NCBI RefSeq assembly: GCF_003236385.1
Contig: NZ_POUA01000014.1
Span: forward strand, 1-45,614
From: Spongiactinospora gelatinilytica
GTDB taxonomy: Bacteria > Actinomycetota > Actinomycetes > Streptosporangiales > Streptosporangiaceae
Reading direction: 5' to 3'
DNA length: 45,614 nucleotides
Shown: piece after piece, positions 5,180 through 45,614 of the stretch
Position numbering within the stretch: the first letter of the stretch is position 1
Layout: every line of letters begins with the position of its first letter
Notes under the pieces: model-generated
Told to the model about the DNA's origin: nothing
Seen by the model: only the letters and a program-made list of their open reading frames with translations
Database searches by the model: none
Made by a program: the position numbers and the translations under genes

Positions 5180-5644
5180 TCAGGCCCCGCCTTCCGAGGA
5201 CTCCTCGGCCGCAGCGGCGGGGGCGGCTTCGGCAGCGGGCTCCTCGGCCTTCTGCGACTTCCTGGACTTGCGCTGCGTGGTGGCGGCACCGCCGGTGTCG
5301 CCGGACAGCGCCTCCTTGGCCGCGGCCTCGTAGATGGCGTGGCGGTCCGGCTTGGGCTCGGCCACCTTCAGCGGCGGCGGGGCGGGCTCACCCTTGAACT
5401 TCTGCCAGTCGCCGGTGAGCTTGAGCAGCTTGAGCACGGGCTCGGTCGGCTGCGCGCCGACGCCCAGCCAGTACTGAGCGCGCTCGGACTTGACCTCGAT
5501 ACGCGAAGGGTTCTCCTTCGGGTGGTACAGACCGATCTCCTCGATCGCCCGGCCGTCCCGCTTGGTGCGGCTGTCGGCGACGACGATGCGGTACTGCGCG
5601 TTGCGGATCATCCCGAGCCGCTTGAGCTTGATCTTGACTGCCAC
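5180..5644 (-). CDS. rpsP: 30S ribosomal protein S16
   Basis: Small-subunit protein needed for 30S assembly. The core is typical: [20 protein letters not shown], then [14 protein letters not shown] and [17 protein letters not shown]. The 154-residue product is longer than E. coli S16 because of an Ala/Glu/Pro-rich C-terminal tail of about 70 residues, common in actinobacteria. GTG 5644 is chosen because AGGAGA lies 10 bases upstream and VAVKIKL is the family start. The longer frame to 5779 adds non-homologous residues. It leads directly into khpA. Confidence 0.96.
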
Positions 5645-8168: not shown

Positions 8169-8619
8169 TGAGCACCCTTTCCAACAGATTGCGATCCGGC
8201 TTGCCCGCCTCCAAGGTCGTCTGGTGCACCTGGACCAGCCCCTCGGCCGCCATGTCGGCGACGAGGATCCTGGTGACGCCGAGCGGGATACGCAGCAGCG
8301 CGGAGATCTCGGCGACCGACCGCACCTGCCGGCACAGCGCACTGATCGCCTGGTACTCGGGGGTCCGGTGGGTCAGATCGTGCTGCAGGGAGGTCAGCGA
8401 GGAGACCAGCGCCTCCACTGCGAGCTGCGTACGGGGGGCGGTACGCCCGCCCGTCACGGCGTACGGCCGGACCAGGGAGCTCTGCTCCCCGGCCGGAGGC
8501 GGCGAGAGGTGATGCGCCCCGCCGGTGTTCCGGTGGGGATCGTCCACGGGGTCGTACAGGGGGTTGTATGGCATTCCGCCCCCTAGCGGACGGCCATCAT
8601 GAAAGCCATGTCCTGTCAC
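8149..8619 (-). CDS. cvnC: Conservon DUF742 protein CvnC (first operon)
   Basis: A 156-residue DUF742 protein, a winged-helix-like component of conservons. The conserved core starts at SLVRPYAVTGGRTAPRTQLA and continues through LCRQVRSVAEISALLRIPLG and ILVADMAAEGLV, ending in the family's LLERVLSGLRRL. GTG 8619 is preceded by AGGAGG at 5-base spacing. An internal Met at the MPYNPLYDP segment is a weaker alternative. The last 20 bp double as the start of cvnD, which suggests tight translational coupling. Confidence 0.94.
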   Translation of the reverse strand: MTGHGFHDGRPLGGGMPYNPLYDPVDDPHRNTGGAHHLSPPPAGEQSSLVRPYAVTGGRTAPRTQLAVEALVSSLTSLQHDLTHRTPEYQAISALCRQVRSVAEISALLRIPLGVTRILVADMAAEGLVQVHQTTLEAGKPDRNLLERVLSGLRRL

Positions 8620-8643
8620 GGCGACCTCCTAGGGTCCCGCCCA

Positions 8644-9066
8644 TCACCGTGGATGGGCGGCCTGGAGCTCCGCGCGTACGGCGGGCGTGAGCACCTGCCC
8701 GGCCCGCTCCACGAGAAGCGTCATCTGATAGGCCACCAGACCCATGTCGCAGTCGGGCGCCGCCAGCACCGCCAGGCAGGACCCGTCGCTGATCGACATG
8801 ATCAGGAGCAGCCCGCGCTGCATCTCCACCACCGTCTGGGTGACCGCCCCGCCCTCGAAGACCCGGGAGGCGCCCTGGGTCAGGCTGATCAGCCCGGCCG
8901 CCACGGCGGCGAGCTGGTCGGCCCGGTCTCTGGGGAAGCCCTCCGAGAAGGCCAGCGGCAGACCGTCGGACGACACCACGACGGTGTGCGCCACCCCCGG
9001 CACGTTGTGCACGAAGTCCGTGATCAGCCAGTTGATACCGCGTGCCGCCTGGCTCAGTTCTCGCAC
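8644..9066 (-). CDS. cvnB: Conservon roadblock/LC7 protein CvnB (first operon)
   Basis: A 140-residue roadblock/LC7-domain protein, predicted regulator of the CvnD GTPase by analogy with MglB. Motifs include INWLITDFVHNVPGVAHTVV, SSDGLPLAFS, ADQLAAVAAGLISL and AAPDCDMGLVAYQM. GTG 9066 is chosen because GAGGAGG lies just upstream and the family N-terminus begins there. The longer frame to 9828 is antisense-like Pro/Arg-rich translation inside cvnA. It lies 58 bp after cvnA and 24 bp before cvnC. Confidence 0.95.
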   Translation of the reverse strand: MRELSQAARGINWLITDFVHNVPGVAHTVVVSSDGLPLAFSEGFPRDRADQLAAVAAGLISLTQGASRVFEGGAVTQTVVEMQRGLLLIMSISDGSCLAVLAAPDCDMGLVAYQMTLLVERAGQVLTPAVRAELQAAHPR

Positions 9067-13628: not shown

Positions 13629-14435
13629 TCAGGTGGCCGCGCGGGCCAGGTGGTGCCGGTGCGGCCCGCGGCGTTCGACGAGTGTGAAGGCGGCGTTGAG
13701 CAGGTAGCCGAGCACGCCGACGAACACGATGCCCGCCCACATCGCGGCCGGCTCGAAGTCGCGCTGGCTGTCCACCAGGTGCGCGCCGATCCCGTGCTTG
13801 CTGCCGAACATCTCCGACAGCACCATGAGGATCAGCGCGAGGCCGATGCTGATCCGCAGACCGGCGATGATCTTGGGGGCGGCGGCGGGCAGCACGATCA
13901 TGCGCAACCGGCGCAGCCCGCGCACGCCGAAGACCTCGGCGCTGTCCAGGTGCAGCCCGTCCACCGTGCGCACGCCGTCCATGGTGTTCAGCACCACCGG
14001 CCAGATGACGCCGAACACGATGGTCGCCACCTGCATCGACGTACCGAGCGCGAACACGCTCAGGAACACCGAGATCAGCGTGGGCGGCGGGATCGCCCGC
14101 CCGAAATGCACGATGGGCTCGACGTACCGGGCGAACGTGCGCGACAGCCCCAGCGCCACCCCGAGGGCGACGCCGGCCAGGCCGGTCAGCAGCCACCCCG
14201 CGAACAGGTTGAGCAGGCTCGGCCCGAAGTCCTCGACGGCCTCCTCGGTCAGGAAGAACCGGTCCGCCGGGCCGGAGAACCAGAGTTCGCGCCCGGTGGC
14301 GACGATCTCCGACGGCGGCGGGAAGTACGCCTCCCCGACCTGGGTGGTGACCCGTTCCCAGAGCCACACCAGCAGGACCGCGAGCCACAGCCGGCCCGCC
14401 GTCCACGTCACGGCCCCGGCCACTCGCCCCCTCAC
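13629..14435 (-). CDS. ABC transporter permease (SsuC/TauC type), second copy
   Basis: A 268-residue inner-membrane permease with about six helices and the cytoplasmic EAA-type loop DSAEVFGVRGLRRLRMIVLP, which contacts the ATPase. The family covers nitrate/sulfonate/taurine and pyrimidine-precursor importers. GTG 14435 overlaps the stop of the first permease by GTGA (14432-14435). Longer frames to 14531 run inside that permease gene and are rejected. With its neighbour it would form a heterodimeric channel. Confidence 0.9.
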   Translation of the reverse strand: MRGRVAGAVTWTAGRLWLAVLLVWLWERVTTQVGEAYFPPPSEIVATGRELWFSGPADRFFLTEEAVEDFGPSLLNLFAGWLLTGLAGVALGVALGLSRTFARYVEPIVHFGRAIPPPTLISVFLSVFALGTSMQVATIVFGVIWPVVLNTMDGVRTVDGLHLDSAEVFGVRGLRRLRMIVLPAAAPKIIAGLRISIGLALILMVLSEMFGSKHGIGAHLVDSQRDFEPAAMWAGIVFVGVLGYLLNAAFTLVERRGPHRHHLARAAT

Positions 14436-28581: not shown

Positions 28582-29667
28582 ATGCAGAAGACTGACGTAA
28601 CCCTGGTGCGGCAGGTGAACATCCGGGCGACGCTGCGCGCCCTGCGCGCGGGCGGCGCGCCGACGCTGACCGAGCTGGCCAGGGCCACCGGCCTGTCCAG
28701 GCAGACGGTGGAAACGGTGCTCGCTGAGCTGGCCGGGCGCGGGCTGGCCCGGGAGGTACCGCCGAGCGAGGGCGGCCCCGGGCGTCCGGCCCGCCGCTTC
28801 CGGTTCCGCGCCGACGCGAGGTACGCGCTGGGGCTGGACGTGGGCGCGCACCGGGTGCTCGCGCTGATCACCGACCTGGACGGCACGGTGGTCGGCACCG
28901 AACGCGCCGCCGTCGCGGCCGACGCCCCGGCGGCCGAACGGCTCACCGCGCTCCGGGCGGTGGCCGAGGCGTGCCTGACCCGGGCGGGCATCGTCCGCAC
29001 CCGGCTGGGCGCGGTGGCGGCGGGCACGCCGGGCGTCGTCGATCGCAGCGGCCGGGTCACCGTCGCCGGAGCGCTGCCCGGGTGGAGCGGCCTCGACCTG
29101 GCCGGTGTGACCGGCGGGTGGTTCGGCCGGCCTGGGTTCGTCGGCAACGACGCCAACCTCGCCGCCGTCGCCGAACACTGGCGTGGGGCGGCCCGGCACG
29201 CGGGCGACGTGGTCTACATCCTGGCCGGTCATCGCCTCGGTTCGGGAATCCTCATCGGGGGGCGTCCCCACCTCGGGCGTACCGGCGCGGCGGCCGAGAT
29301 CGGCACCCTGCGCCTGCTGGGCTGGGAAGACGCCCCCGCCGAACTCACCGGCGAGGCGACCGCCGACCAGATCTTCGCCGCCGCCGCCCAGGGCGACCCC
29401 ACCGCCCTCAAGGCCATCGACCGCTACGCCCACCGCGTCGCCCAGGGTGCCTCCGCCCTGATCCTGACCATCGACCCCGAACTCGTCGTCCTAGGCGGCG
29501 GCTTCTCCCACGCCGGCGACCTTCTCCTCACTCCCCTCCGAGCCCACCTCACCCCGCTCTGCCTCACTCCCCCGGAAATCACCGCCTCCACCCTCGGCGA
29601 CGAAGCAGTCGCCCTGGGCGCCACCCGCCTCGCACTCGACCACATCCACCAAGACCTCCACATCTAG
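28582..29667 (+). CDS. ROK family transcriptional regulator
   Basis: A 361-residue repressor with an N-terminal winged helix (LTELARATGLSRQTVETVLA) joined to a sugar-kinase-like ROK domain (LGLDVGAHRVLALITDLDG, GNDANLAAVAEHW, GRTGAAAEIGTLRLLGW). The zinc-binding CxCG...C motif usual in ROK proteins is absent: after AEIG the sequence continues without cysteine. The phosphate-binding DxGxT is DVGAH, so kinase activity is doubtful. ATG 28582 has GAGG six bases upstream; a TTG at 28564 is less likely. It probably regulates the divergent oxidoreductase in response to a sugar. Confidence 0.92.
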   Translation: MQKTDVTLVRQVNIRATLRALRAGGAPTLTELARATGLSRQTVETVLAELAGRGLAREVPPSEGGPGRPARRFRFRADARYALGLDVGAHRVLALITDLDGTVVGTERAAVAADAPAAERLTALRAVAEACLTRAGIVRTRLGAVAAGTPGVVDRSGRVTVAGALPGWSGLDLAGVTGGWFGRPGFVGNDANLAAVAEHWRGAARHAGDVVYILAGHRLGSGILIGGRPHLGRTGAAAEIGTLRLLGWEDAPAELTGEATADQIFAAAAQGDPTALKAIDRYAHRVAQGASALILTIDPELVVLGGGFSHAGDLLLTPLRAHLTPLCLTPPEITASTLGDEAVALGATRLALDHIHQDLHI

Positions 29668-29847
29668 ACCAATGCCCGCAAGCGAGGGCTGAGGGTGCCA
29701 GTGGCGTTACCGGGGAGGAAAGGGGTGAGGGCGCACCAGCGCTCTGGACGAAGAAGCCATGGACGAAGACCGATTCCCAGCGGCCGAGCAGCCACGCGCA
29801 GCGTCGCGATGTTGGCCGACGCGGCACGTCGCGCCGTGGGAGGCAGT

Positions 29848-30019
29848 TTGTCGTGGGATGCACTCAGCGCATCCACCCACGGGCCCGGGTGCGGTCGTGT
29901 CCGGAGCGACGAGCGATGGAGTGAGGGAGCGAGGAACGAGCGAGTGAGCGACTGAGCGAGGAGAGGAGGGCGCGGCCTTGAGGGCGCCCGGGCCCCGCGC
30001 GAGCGAAGCGAGCGCCATG
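29848..30019 (+). repeat. Dispersed GC-rich repeat, copy B
   Basis: Within the 373-bp gap after the ROK gene: TTGTCGTGGGATGCACTCA, GCGGTCGTGTCCGGAGCGAC, then GGGCGCCCGGGCCCCGCGCG and GAGCGAAGCGAGCGCCATG. Blocks and order match copy A at glnD. About 45-50 bases of GAGC/GAGT-type short repeats (29915-29970) are inserted in the middle. After the ATG only a 12-codon frame (MSTARAPVLRCG) follows, ending inside the sigma gene tail. I see no other gene in 29668-30040. Confidence 0.75.
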
Positions 30020-33736: not shown

Positions 33737-34898
33737 CGGCAAGCTCCTTGATGGCGTCGGCGAGCGCGGCGACACCAGCGTGGCAGTCGGCAGGCTCCGC
33801 ATGTTCCTCCGGGGAATGGGAGATTCCCGTTGGGTTACGGACGAACACCATCGCGGTGGGCACGCCCGCCGCGGCGAGGATCCCCGCGTCGTGGCCCGCG
33901 CCCGTGCCGATCAGCGGTGCGCCGCCGAGGGCGGCGGCCAGGCGGGCGGCCAGCGCCGGGTCGAACTCCACCCGCGGGCTCCAGGACTCGCAGCCCACCC
34001 GCGCGCCCGCGCCGACCTCGGCGACCAGATCACGTACCGCGTGTTCGTCCTCGCCCCTGACGTCCAGCCAGGCGGTGACGTGCCCGGGGATCGCGTTGGC
34101 GCTGCCCGGCGAGACCCGGACCTTGCCCACGGTGGCGACCACCCCGCGCCGCTCGGCGGCCGTCCTGGCCGAAAGGACCGCCTCGGCGAACGGGATCATC
34201 GGGTCGTCCCGGTCGGCCAGCCGCGTGGTGCCCGCGTGGTCGGCCCGGCCGGCGAAGTCCAGCCGCCAGCGGCCGTGCGGCCAGATGGAGGTGGCCACGC
34301 CGATGGGCGCGTCCATGTCGACCAGGGCCCGGCCCTGTTCGACGTGCAGTTCCACGAAGGCCCCGATGTGGCGGCGCGTCTCGGGGTCGGCGCCGAGCGC
34401 GGCCGGGTCGCGGCCCGCCCGGCGCAGTACGTCGGCCATGGTGTCGCCGTCATCGTCGGTCAGCCCGCGCGCCCGGTCCGGCTCGACCACGCCGGTGAGC
34501 AGCCGCGACCCCATGCACGGGACGCCGAACCTGGCGCCCTCCTCGTCGGTGAAGCATGCCACCCCGAGCGGTACGCCGGGCCGCACCCCCTGCTCCCTCA
34601 GCAGGTCGATCGCCGCGAACGCGGACACGACCCCGAGCGGCCCGTCATAGGCGCCGCCCTGCCGTACCGAGTCCAGGTGGCTCCCGGTCACCACCCCCGG
34701 CCGCGCCTCCGGGTCACCCCACCACGCCCACAGATTCCCGTTGCGGTCCTCCCGCAGGTCGAGGCCGCGCCGCCCGGCCTCCTGCCGGAACCACTCGCGC
34801 AGTTCGAGATCGGCCGCCGACCAGGCGTCCCGCAGGTAACCTCCCCGCGCGTCCCGTCCCACATCGGCCACCGCCACCCACATACCGTCGAACTCCAT
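33720..34898 (-). CDS. M20-family amidohydrolase (allantoate amidohydrolase/N-carbamoylase type)
   Basis: A 392-residue binuclear metallo-amidohydrolase of the AllC/HyuC family. Metal ligands lie in TGSHLDSVRQGGAYDGPLGV, FTDEEGARFGV, FVELHVEQGRAL and the late ISHSPEEHA; GAGHDAGILA is also typical. Relatives cleave N-carbamoyl or ureido groups of amino acids. It is the first gene of an operon with hutF and hutI and overlaps hutF, so it may act as the missing N-formylglutamate hydrolase. That is inference. ATG 34898 follows GAGGGG at seven bases. Confidence 0.9.
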   Translation of the reverse strand: MEFDGMWVAVADVGRDARGGYLRDAWSAADLELREWFRQEAGRRGLDLREDRNGNLWAWWGDPEARPGVVTGSHLDSVRQGGAYDGPLGVVSAFAAIDLLREQGVRPGVPLGVACFTDEEGARFGVPCMGSRLLTGVVEPDRARGLTDDDGDTMADVLRRAGRDPAALGADPETRRHIGAFVELHVEQGRALVDMDAPIGVATSIWPHGRWRLDFAGRADHAGTTRLADRDDPMIPFAEAVLSARTAAERRGVVATVGKVRVSPGSANAIPGHVTAWLDVRGEDEHAVRDLVAEVGAGARVGCESWSPRVEFDPALAARLAAALGGAPLIGTGAGHDAGILAAAGVPTAMVFVRNPTGISHSPEEHAEPADCHAGVAALADAIKELADELLV

Positions 34899-38240: not shown

Positions 38241-38750
38241 ATGCCCGAGCGGGAGGTACGCGGTTACCGGACGGTCGCCCTCCCCCGCAACGCCCCCCGC
38301 TCGATCCTGGACGACGGCGAGTCCTGCCCGCTCGGTGAGCGGACCCTGCATGGCATCCCCTTCGACTTCGGCGAGGAGCGCGGTGACGCGGCGCTGCTGC
38401 GGGTGGAGTCCGAGGCGGTCACGATCCCGCTGGGACGCTCCTTCCGGTCGAGGTGGACCGCGGCTCGGCGACCTACGTCTACCGCCGGGCCGGTGGCCCC
38501 GGCGCGGACCTGCCCGGGTGGGGAGCGCCGATCGAGGAGGAGCACCGCGCGTACGTACGGGTGGCCGCGACCCCGTCGGCCCGGCTGACGCTCCGGCGCG
38601 GCCCTGCCGTGCTCGCCGCCTGCACCTGGGGAGCCCTGCTGGCCGCCGGGCGGCACTCGGCGGACGGGGTGACCTGGCGGGTGCCGGACGCGGGCCGGGC
38701 GTGGGTGCGCACGGTGGTCCGCGACTCCGCCGCCGGGCGCGCGGAGCCTA
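38241..38750 (+). pseudogene. Frameshifted gene of unknown function
   Basis: ATG 38241 lies 6 bp after the permease stop with a good GGAGGGG site. The first frame reads MPEREVRGYRTVALPRNAPR, then LHGIPFDFG and VESEAVTIPLG, then turns Arg/Pro-rich at about 38440. From there a second frame continues sensibly: TLLPVEVDRGSATYVYRRAG, EEEHRAYVRVAATPSA and AACTWGALLAAGRHSADGVT. It stays plausible until the end of the convergent rpiR gene. A single-base indel near 38436-38441 joins the halves. I do not recognise the family; the IPFDFG segment suggests a beta-sandwich domain. A sequencing error or programmed shift is possible. Confidence 0.55.
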
Positions 38751-41611: not shown

Positions 41612-43429
41612 ATGATGGGGCCCGTTGACCGATTTGTGAACGGCACCCTCGCGGAACCCGCCCCCGCCGCCCCGATCGCCAAAGGGTCGTGGCGGCTTCT
41701 ACTCACCCACATCAAACCGCGCAAATGGCCTCTTGTCGCCGGTGGTCTGCTCGGCTTCGTCGGCGGCATCGCCGGGCTCGCCGAGCCGCTGGTGGCCAAG
41801 TCGGTGATCGACGCGTTCGGCTCGGGGGCCTCGCTCACCGGTCCCATCCTCATGCTCACCGTGCTGGTGCTCTTCGGGGCCACGCTCTCGGCGGCGGGGA
41901 CGTTCGTCCTGGAACGCACCGCGGAGTCGATCGTGCTCAGCGCCCGGCTGGGGCTGGTCGGCCGGATGCTGCGGCTGCGCGTCCCCGACGTGGACCGGCT
42001 CAAGCCCGGCGACCTGATCTCCAGGGTCACCGCCGACACCACCCTGCTGCGCGCGGTCTGCACCGGAGGCGTCACCAACGGGATCACCGCGCTGTTCATG
42101 CTGGCCGGATGCGTCGTGCTGATGGGGTTCATGGACGTCGTGCTGCTCGGCGTCACGCTTGGCGTGCTGGCGGTGGTCGCCACGATGGCGCTGTTCGTCT
42201 TCCCGCGCATCGGCAGGGCCACCACCCAGGCGCAGGAGGCGCTGGGCGAGATGGGCGCCGTGCTGGACCGGGCGCTGCAGGCGTTCCGCACGGTCAAGGC
42301 CGCCGGGGCCGAGGAGCGTGAGACCGAGGCCGTGCGCGGGGCCGCGCAGCGCGCCTGGCGCAAGGGCGTCACCGCGGCCGGCTGGAACTCCATCGCCGGC
42401 ACCGCCACCTGGCTCGGCGTCCAGCTCTCCTTCCTGGCCGTCCTCGGGGTCGGCGGGCTGCGAGTGGCGTCGGGCACGCTGGAGGTCTCGGCGCTGATCG
42501 CGTTCCTGCTGTACCTGTTCTACCTGACCGGGCCGATCTCGATGCTGGTGGAGGGCGCCACCCAGTTGCAGACCGGACTCGCCGCGGTGACCCGGCTGCG
42601 GCAGGTGGAGGAGCTGGAGGTGGAGTCGCTCACGCCGGGCGAACCGGCCGCGCCCGGAGGTACCGCTCCCGCCGCGCTGACCTTCACCGACGTGCGCTTC
42701 CACTACACCAAGGACCGCTCCCCCGCGCTGGACGGGGTGTCCTTCGAGGTGCCCGCGGGCAGCATGACCGCGCTCGTCGGGCCTTCCGGGGCGGGGAAGT
42801 CCACGATGTTCGCGCTGCTGGAACGCTTCTATGAGCCGGACGCCGGGTCGATCACGCTCGACGGCAGGGAACTGCGCGACATCCCGTTGCCCGGGCTGCG
42901 GGCCGCGCTCGGCTACGTCGAGCAGGACACGCCGGTGCTGGCCGGGTCGCTGCGGGAGAACCTGCTGTTCGGCGCGCCCGAGGTGACCGAGGATGAGGTG
43001 GCCGCGGTGATCGCCCGCACCCAGCTCACCGACCTGGTCAACCGCCTGCCCGAGGGCCTGGAAACGCAGGTCGGCCACCGCGGCCAGATGCTGTCCGGCG
43101 GCGAGCGGCAGCGGGTCGCCATCGCCAGGGCGCTGCTGCGCAGGCCCCGGGTGCTGCTGCTGGACGAGGCCACCTCCCAGTTGGACGCGGTCAACGAACT
43201 GCGGCTGCGCGAGGTGATCGAGGAGGTCGCGGCCACCACCACCGTGCTGGTGATCGCCCACCGGCTGTCCACCGTGACCAGCGCCCGGCAGATCGTGGTC
43301 CTGGAGGCGGGCCGGGTCCGCGCCGTGGGCAGCCACGCCGAACTGGTGGCCGCCGACGACCTGTACCGCGAGCTGGCCACCACGCAGTTCGTGGCGAGCG
43401 GGGAGGCGATGGCGGGCAACGCCGGGTAG
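41612..43429 (+). CDS. ABC transporter, fused permease/ATPase (exporter half-transporter)
   Basis: A 605-residue MDR-type ABC exporter that would dimerise. Six helices occupy about 37-310, including a KPGDLISRVTADTTLLRAV coupling region. The ATPase domain has Walker A GPSGAGKST (390-398), signature LSGGERQ (494-500), Walker B VLLLDEAT (514-521) and switch His550 in LVIAHRLSTV. The likely role is export of a drug, lipid or peptide; no substrate gene is adjacent. ATG 41612 or the ATG one codon later could start it. It stands alone, divergent from hutU. Confidence 0.93.
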   Translation: MMGPVDRFVNGTLAEPAPAAPIAKGSWRLLLTHIKPRKWPLVAGGLLGFVGGIAGLAEPLVAKSVIDAFGSGASLTGPILMLTVLVLFGATLSAAGTFVLERTAESIVLSARLGLVGRMLRLRVPDVDRLKPGDLISRVTADTTLLRAVCTGGVTNGITALFMLAGCVVLMGFMDVVLLGVTLGVLAVVATMALFVFPRIGRATTQAQEALGEMGAVLDRALQAFRTVKAAGAEERETEAVRGAAQRAWRKGVTAAGWNSIAGTATWLGVQLSFLAVLGVGGLRVASGTLEVSALIAFLLYLFYLTGPISMLVEGATQLQTGLAAVTRLRQVEELEVESLTPGEPAAPGGTAPAALTFTDVRFHYTKDRSPALDGVSFEVPAGSMTALVGPSGAGKSTMFALLERFYEPDAGSITLDGRELRDIPLPGLRAALGYVEQDTPVLAGSLRENLLFGAPEVTEDEVAAVIARTQLTDLVNRLPEGLETQVGHRGQMLSGGERQRVAIARALLRRPRVLLLDEATSQLDAVNELRLREVIEEVAATTTVLVIAHRLSTVTSARQIVVLEAGRVRAVGSHAELVAADDLYRELATTQFVASGEAMAGNAG

Positions 43430-43572: not shown

Positions 43573-44462
43573 ATGCGTTTACGGATCGATCGGCGCGCCC
43601 TCATCGGGCTGGGCCTGGCGGGGGCGCTGGCCGTCTCCTCCGGCGATGCCGGGGGCCTCGCGGTGTGAGGACGCGGTGCCGGTGTCGGCGCGGAGCAGGC
43701 CGAAAGCTCTACACCCTCAAGCGGATCACCGAGTCGGGCACCAAGACCCTCGTGTCGGACGGAGTGGTCGCGCCGAGCAACGTCGGCCCGGCCTCCATGC
43801 CCGACTACGGCACCCTGCGCGCGCAGGCGATCACCGGGCTGCCGGGCGGCGGGAAGACCTTCGCCGGCCAGTCCGACGAGGCGTTCTTCCTGGACCTGCG
43901 GATCTTCGACCTGCTCTACGGAGGCGACCTTTCGGAGGTCGGGCAGGACACCACCAAGGGCTACAACGTCCAGACGCTGGCCCTCCAGGTGCCCGCCGAC
44001 GAACTCGCGCTGAAGGGCGACGCCACCCGCAACCCGGTCATCGGCGTCTGGTCCACCACCGACAAGAAGGGCAGCGACGGCTTCGTCCAGGTGTCCCGGC
44101 TCGGCAACCCGCTGGTCAACGAGGTCGTGGTGCCCGCCGGGCTGAAGGACGCCTTCAACGCCCTGCCCCCGGCCAAGGACGCCGGCGTGCCCGCGCTGGT
44201 CAAGCGGGTCACCGACCCCGAGGTACCGCGGCTCATCGAGGCCATCTACGGCAGCAAGGCCCCGGCCACCCCGCGCGATGACCTCGTGCAGATCTTCCTG
44301 ACCGGGATCGCCAAGCGGAACGGCCCGATCAAGGCCGACCTCAACTCGCAGATCCTCAACAAGGACGCGGACCCGGACAAGTTCCGCCCCTCGGAGATGC
44401 TGCGGCTGAACACCTCGATCCCGCCGAGCAAGGACCCCGACCGGCTCGGCGTGCTGGCCGGC
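43573..44462 (+). pseudogene. Truncated, frameshifted DUF4331 gene
   Basis: ATG 43573 encodes a signal-peptide-like MRLRIDRRALIGLGLAGALA but stops at 43668. In another frame, from about 43690, sequence typical of the C-terminal half of DUF4331 proteins continues: SNVGPASMPDYGTLRAQA, GLPGGGKTFAGQSDEAFFLD, GYNVQTLALQVP, NPVIGVWSTTD and QVSRLGNPLVNEVVVPAGL, then RLNTSIPPSKDPDRLGVLAG. The usual N-terminal half (with the HREAP region) is missing, and the C-terminus after VLAG is replaced by a different protein's end. Together these show internal deletion and loss of function. Confidence 0.7.
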
Positions 44463-44647
44463 GCCGCCTACGGGCTCGGCATGGCCGCCACGCTCACCGC
44501 CGCGGCCTGCTGCTGGTCAAGGTCTCCCACCGGCTGCTGACCACACCAGGGGCCTGGTGGTCACGGTTCGCCCCGCTGGGGACCGCCGCGATGGTGTTCC
44601 TGCTCGGCGCGGGCCTGGCGGTGCGCAGCCTGATGGGGGCGGCCTGA
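44463..44647 (+). pseudogene. C-terminal fragment of a NicO-type nickel/cobalt transporter
   Basis: Directly fused in frame to the DUF4331 relic, AAYGLGMAATLTAA reads like the late membrane helix of NicO/RcnA transporters. A one-base shift at about 44502-44505 is needed to continue as GLLLVKVSHRLL, then APLGTAAMVFLLGAGLAVRS and LMGAA before the stop at 44645-44647. I recall DUF4331, a TPR protein and a NicO transporter as neighbours in some actinomycetes. A deletion removing the middle of such an operon would produce this join. Confidence 0.6.
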
Positions 44648-44648
44648 G

Positions 44649-45356
44649 TCAGTCGTCCACGGCGGGCAGGTCGAAGTCGGTCGCGGGGTCGAGGTCGCCG
44701 TCCTCGGCCCTGCGCAACTTGATGTCATCGGCCCACGCGTACGCGAACCGCCTGATCTCGTCCACCCGCTCCTCCGGGACGCCGAGAGCCATGAAGCCGG
44801 TGTCGGCCACCAGATCGACGCCTTCCAGGCGCATGACGAGGTCCTCCAGGGAGAAGTCCTCGTCGTGCAGGCGGGCCAGATGCTCCAGCTCGCGGAACGG
44901 GTAGAGCCGGCCCGCCTCCGCCGCGTCGCGGAAGTCGCGGGCCAGCCCCCGCCCGTGGAGATCGCGCAGCCGCAGGCCGATCGCGTCGGGAAGCGCCACG
45001 ACGGCGACATCGCCGCACCTGACGGGGGCGGCCTGAAGGGCCTCGCGCAGCAGTGCGAGGCGGCAGGTCTGCCCGGTGACCGGCTCGGTGACCAGCAGCA
45101 GGGACGCCCTCGGCCCCGACTCCAGATCGCCCACCTCGAACCCCGCCGCCCGGCACGCCTCGGCGACCGCCCAGGCCACGCCGGCCGGCTGCTCCTCCCC
45201 CGTCACCGCGAACCGCAGGCTCTCCCCCGGCCGCTCGGCGAGCCCGTGCGCCATCATGGCGTGCCCCCCGGCCAGGGCCAGGCCATGTCGCTCGGCGATG
45301 GGCGACAACACCGACACCAGCCGCTCATGGAATTCCGGAAGCCTCAGTTCATCCAT
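44649..45356 (-). CDS. AbiEii/AbiGii-like nucleotidyltransferase-fold protein
   Basis: A 235-residue protein with the AbiEii-like opening LALAGGHAMMAHGLAERPGE and a later ALPDAIGLRLRDLHGRGLARDFRDAAEA segment. In active family members the GG is followed by a D-x-D (for example a RPSxDLD pattern). Here the equivalent is RPGESLRFAV, so the metal-binding aspartates appear to be lost. It may be a non-catalytic relative or an antitoxin-like binder. ATG 45356 overlaps the stop of a small upstream ORF by 8 bp. Its 3' end is 1 bp from the end of the convergent NicO relic. Confidence 0.7.
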   Translation of the reverse strand: MDELRLPEFHERLVSVLSPIAERHGLALAGGHAMMAHGLAERPGESLRFAVTGEEQPAGVAWAVAEACRAAGFEVGDLESGPRASLLLVTEPVTGQTCRLALLREALQAAPVRCGDVAVVALPDAIGLRLRDLHGRGLARDFRDAAEAGRLYPFRELEHLARLHDEDFSLEDLVMRLEGVDLVADTGFMALGVPEERVDEIRRFAYAWADDIKLRRAEDGDLDPATDFDLPAVDD

Positions 45357-45516: not shown

Positions 45517-45614
45517 GCGGTCCGTGCAGGGCGTCCGGGGAGGGCGGGACCCGCCTCGTGAGTCCGCTGGTGCGGGGTGGGAGCGCGTCTGGCATGGTCA
45601 CAGTATGCCCACTG

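Follow-up and report, generated by a model that had tools for sequence, protein, structure and literature searches.

The window analysed here is one whole contig of 45,614 bp (C55) from the draft genome of Spongiactinospora gelatinilytica 7K107T (G000), an actinomycete of desert origin. The paper on this genome (30x, POUA00000000; PMC12187853) used HiSeq 2500 paired reads and names SPAdes as the assembler for its isolates in general. Two congeners were used for comparison, S. rosea LHW63015 (G001; NZ_QMEY01000025) and Spongiactinospora sp. TRM90649 (G002). At positions 43573-44647, the window holds the stub of a conserved operon encoding a DUF4331 protein, a TPR protein and a NicO-like membrane protein. 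The synteny is anchored by both neighbours of the stub, and the features, compared with contig C18 of S. rosea, are as follows.

41612..43429, + strand: ABC transporter (label by eye), upstream neighbour, intact; 96% protein identity to S. rosea, full length
43573..43641, + strand: 5' remnant of the DUF4331 gene; matches C18 8904-8836, the start of a 462-aa DUF4331 gene
43640..43703, - strand: inverted 64-bp DUF4331 piece; 97% identity to C18 8771-8834, opposite orientation
43704..43708, no strand: five join bases belonging to neither arm; 297 bp of S. rosea (8474-8770) absent here
43709..44461, + strand: middle part of DUF4331 (the island), open frame; 95.5% identity to C18 8473-7721; PF14224 positions 107-364
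44461..44462, no strand: blunt deletion join; 2716 bp of S. rosea missing, 0 bp shared
44462..44647, + strand: 3' end of the NicO-like gene; matches C18 from 5004 downward
44649..45356, - strand: 235-aa protein, downstream neighbour, intact; 92% protein identity to S. rosea, full length

The 5' remnant comprises, by eye, a start and a signal-peptide-like stretch. Its ATG at 43573 begins MRLRIDRRALIGLGLAGALAVSS..., and the frame ends after 31 codons at a premature TGA (43666-43668) that is brought in by the inverted piece. In total, 362 bp of S. rosea (8474-8835) are replaced on this side by 67 bp, of which 62, together with 2 bases shared with the left arm, are S. rosea 8771-8834 reversed, and 5 match neither arm. 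The piece is not inverted relative to S. rosea only, as 48 bp of it are in the opposite orientation relative to G002 too. On the 3' side, the 2716-bp deletion removes all of the TPR gene along with ~205 bp from the end of DUF4331 and ~1.15 kb from the start of the NicO-like gene. The junction 44461|44462 keeps the frame, and an ORF of 291 codons (43665-44540) runs from the DUF4331 middle into the NicO-like tail. A 1-base deletion at about 44505 then throws this tail out of frame, the last ~60 codons of the gene being left up to the TGA at 44645-44647. The frame of the stub is thus disrupted and its genes truncated by the early stop, the large deletion and the 1-base deletion. While the 3' join shares 0 bp, the left 5' join shares about 2 bp, and no clear shared bases were found at the right 5' join.

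What survives has 92-97% identity to the S. rosea trio, and most of the collinear stretch is at 94-96%. The DUF4331 profile (PF14224) scores 256.4 bits on the stub against a cut-off of 27, and only positions 107-364 of its 421 are covered, aligned to residues 13-269 of ORF 43665-44540 (E 7.8e-76). An earlier note, made from the letters of the window, had described a signal-peptide start, the C-terminal half of a DUF4331 protein and the last stretch of a NicO-like transporter within about 1.1 kb. These parts are indeed present, except that what remains of DUF4331 is the middle and not the C-terminal half. The two frame changes that it reported can be assigned, relative to S. rosea, to the 64-bp inverted piece and the 1-base deletion, respectively, and its proposal of two or more deletions is borne out by the same comparison.

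In S. rosea, the same site between the same two neighbours holds the three genes whole, encoding proteins of 462 (DUF4331), 434 (TPR) and 445 aa (NicO-like). The same trio lies beside the ABC transporter on contig C73 of G002, where a relative of the 235-aa gene is found 2 kb further on (53% identity). At the operon the two congeners thus agree with one another against S. gelatinilytica. The name 'NTase' given to the 235-aa gene is a by-eye label, and its S. rosea relative has no Pfam family match at E 0.1.

The comparison was extended to 52 named Streptosporangiaceae loci, which take in the records of both congeners. A near full-length DUF4331 gene (coverage 0.97 or more) is present in all of them, and in 47 it is followed on the same strand by TPR and NicO genes; the remaining five loci reach the end of their contig before that. 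The NicO matches among the 47 are not all clean, as one has a stop inside the alignment (L089), one is cut by a contig end (L059) and four are in two pieces, the best piece having a coverage of 0.76-0.80 (L062, L074, L097, L098). The order DUF4331, TPR, NicO, which the earlier note had assumed to be ancestral, is supported as such by these 47 loci. As for the DUF4331 protein of S. rosea itself, it has no sequence match among solved structures at E 10, and a structure predicted from 26 sequences has a mean pLDDT of 51.5. No mention of DUF4331 or PF14224 was found in the literature searched.

We now turn to the possibility that ORF 43665-44540 encodes a functional short chimera, consisting of the DUF4331 middle and a NicO helix. 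That the join is in frame and leaves 291 open codons would agree with this, as would the low omega between S. gelatinilytica and S. rosea. However, the ORF has no signal peptide by eye, it starts inside the inverted piece, both ends of the DUF4331 domain (profile positions 1-106 and 365-421) are gone from it, and its tail is out of frame past the 1-base deletion. A fused gene conserved in frame among relatives, the case that the earlier note had set against its own reading, was also looked for and was seen in none of the 52 named loci, which makes a real chimeric protein unlikely. Taken with the state of the ORF, we give this reading very little credence.

A more serious concern is that the operon is whole in the living strain and that sequence was lost and wrongly joined when the draft was assembled, the inverted piece being a chimera of this process. 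The draft is fragmented (30x, 957 contigs, 8,049,107 bp), and its completeness is 95.9, compared to 100 for both congeners. The losses are also one-sided: among the 36 joins listed, 18 differ in length by at least 500 bp, and at every one of these S. rosea has the longer version. Furthermore, the last 7.2 kb of C55 contain five of its seven joins, at four joins elsewhere the two BLAST arms run 12-19 bp into each other, and the island looks constrained overall, with an omega of 0.09. Of the four overlaps, two were refined to 7 and 0 bp, and the two in contig C111 were omitted.

Several observations speak against such an artefact. At the 10 clean joins examined, spread over eight contigs, the number of shared bases is 0 in five cases, 1 in two, 2 in two and 7 in one, compared to a random mean of 0.85; poor arm scores were obtained for the C15 join (refined to 0 bp) and the 8.1-kb join in C555. 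Since these numbers are near chance, misjoins driven by overlaps are disfavoured. A k-mer assembler such as SPAdes should, moreover, need reads across blunt joins. The earlier note had suggested looking for short repeats at the joins, and little beyond chance was seen apart from one 7-bp case at 38724, among joins filtered to exclude C111 and a 78-bp join at 45518. At the 30 joins with at least 50 S. rosea bases missing, the G+C content of the missing part is 0.55-0.78, on either side of the 0.68-0.72 of the spans. In this window the missing parts are at 0.65-0.77 and the span at 0.71, and no sign was seen that sequence had been lost through extreme G+C. The NicO tail, finally, carries its additional 1-base lesion.

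The distribution of damage over the sampled contigs argues in the same direction. On the contigs carrying ribosomal protein L14 and FtsZ, 1 of 39 genes is not intact, whereas four other contigs have 27 such genes out of 101 (p = 0.0007); the counts are approximate, since the gene lists come from a rough home-made ORF caller, and the sample is non-random, as C55 and C221 were picked for the operon finding (without them, C15 and C111 have 11 of 45). With truncated genes only, the sparing of the core contigs is weak (1/39 against 14/101, p = 0.067). In the reciprocal test, with gene lists from the same caller, 10 of 123 S. gelatinilytica genes are not intact in S. rosea, some of which are the fused fragments themselves and the others either confined to S. 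gelatinilytica or just under the 0.9 threshold. Altogether, an assembly error is the less likely explanation, somewhat improbable in our judgement, and ordinary gene decay is favoured.

The substitution pattern was also considered. On the island, the nonsynonymous to synonymous counts are 6:10 on the S. gelatinilytica branch and 1:16 on that of S. rosea (p = 0.04), a weak hint of relaxed constraint; of five residues changed on the former, two (D and S) are the commonest in the 52 relatives, and an R occurs in 2 of the 52. When fragments are pooled and tested against intact neighbours, the branch test, which included neither the NicO tail nor the second of the CehA/McbA pieces, gives p = 0.25. 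The pooled dN/dS is 0.36 for the fragments, 0.23 for the intact neighbours and 0.13 for the core contigs, and the corresponding frameshift rates of 2.46, 0.94 and 1.08 per kb, obtained by blastn with cheap gaps, are too noisy to build on. The recent date proposed in the earlier note agrees with an island that is 95.5% identical to S. rosea, still open and at an omega of about 0.09, a signal to be read with the qualification that a misassembled intact gene would give the same picture.

Other losses are frequent in the sampled contigs of the same genome. Within the window, positions 38241-38748 are what is left of a gene for a CehA/McbA-family metallohydrolase (835 aa in S. rosea), from which two more deletions have removed about 0.5 and 1.5 kb, the latter with 7 bp shared at its join, and at 29667-29882 there are 216 unmatched bases opposite about 5.1 kb of S. 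rosea. A paralogous operon lies on contig C221 (33146 and 34820-34879; L003). Compared with S. rosea C19, it has lost 1403 bp upstream of DUF4331, most of its TPR gene is gone, with 58 bp standing in for 1040 bp, and its NicO gene is read in two frames. On contig C555 (L126), a urease-gene gap is located at 1252-1300 and a further 8.1 kb are absent at 5384. At C15 13673-14516 (L039), what is by eye a sigma-factor fragment is joined to other coding sequence, and its ORF 13673-14323 has no match in the S. rosea stretch compared.

From the scar, the earlier note had concluded that a nickel- or cobalt-related function was recently lost, and an adaptive loss of nickel/cobalt handling was therefore weighed as well. 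S. gelatinilytica has no match (E 0.001) to NicO (PF03824) or to urease alpha (PF00449), while S. rosea has two of each, one PF03824 match being the operon at the site of the stub and one PF00449 match being barely above the cut-off; G002 has one urease, the PF03824 search having covered S. gelatinilytica and S. rosea. In addition, there is the damage to the paralogous operon on C221, and about 5.3 kb of S. rosea C45 holding the urease alpha gene are absent from C555. However, the nickel SOD is intact in S. gelatinilytica. The intact NicO-like protein of S. rosea reaches 20.5 bits against PF03824 (cut-off 27.7) and 56 bits against the nickel/cobalt efflux subfamily PRK10019 (RcnA; cut-off 195), below the cut-off in both cases, and even the C19 paralogue of S. 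rosea goes undetected by PF03824. The G002 urease, with 20 kb around it, and the 34 kb compared from S. rosea have no flank in common, which leaves both a urease loss in S. gelatinilytica and a gain elsewhere compatible with the data.

Outside the two core contigs, 27 of 101 genes are in any case not intact. At this level of damage, about one in four of the genes sampled there, the losses do not point to selection on nickel, and the scar, as one of many in the sampled contigs, marks no particular function. That the scar shows the organism to have stopped using nickel is not supported, and we consider the adaptive reading highly unlikely. The earlier note is thus supported in part: its anatomy is almost correct, while its functional conclusion is not supported.

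The most probable reading, to which we assign a probability of roughly 0.7 on the basis of the sequence comparisons, is that the locus is a pseudogene of the DUF4331-TPR-NicO-like operon in S. gelatinilytica 7K107T. The lesions would then lie in the strain's own DNA. Comparison of the assemblies shows a 5' rearrangement inside DUF4331 that introduces the stop after 31 codons, a separate deletion of 2716 bp that joins the middle of DUF4331 in frame to the last ~60 NicO codons, and the 1-base deletion that breaks the NicO tail. The joins may stem from illegitimate repair of the end-joining type, since they are blunt and a flipped local fragment sits at one of them, the outcome to be expected for a doubly broken piece re-ligated backwards.

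One can also speculate that, compared with S. rosea, the strain is in, or has passed through, a burst of gene loss that is blunt and biased towards deletion. A change in end joining might lie behind it, since Ku (PF02735) has no match in S. gelatinilytica and one each in S. rosea and G002, although incompleteness of the draft could also account for this. We regard the burst as rather doubtful; if it is real, the scar and the flipped fragment in it would be one of its traces. The wider pattern of one-sided losses would merit attention only once long-read data had borne it out. As it stands, a well conserved operon would be in the course of being lost in one strain, and a single such locus matters little. 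The case does warn that fused ORFs in fragmented drafts should not be taken for chimeric proteins.

It is finally useful to compare the stub with known systems. The Streptosporangiaceae operon (L100 in S. rosea, L054 in TRM90649) has, in S. rosea, the same place and order as the stub, which differs from it in lacking the TPR gene, most of the NicO-like gene and both DUF4331 flanks, and in carrying the 64-bp inversion. To the RcnA/NicO transporters (PRK10019; PF03824), the S. rosea NicO-like protein shows a weak profile likeness in its membrane part and a visible His-rich loop, but it falls below their curated cut-offs, and a nickel/cobalt substrate is putative. Bacterial pseudogenes can form by intragenic and multigene deletion, and the known cases resemble the stub in their truncated frames, premature stop, blunt join and intact neighbours. 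Compared with the usual deletion pseudogenes, the flipped fragment is a little unusual, yet it fits end-joining repair.
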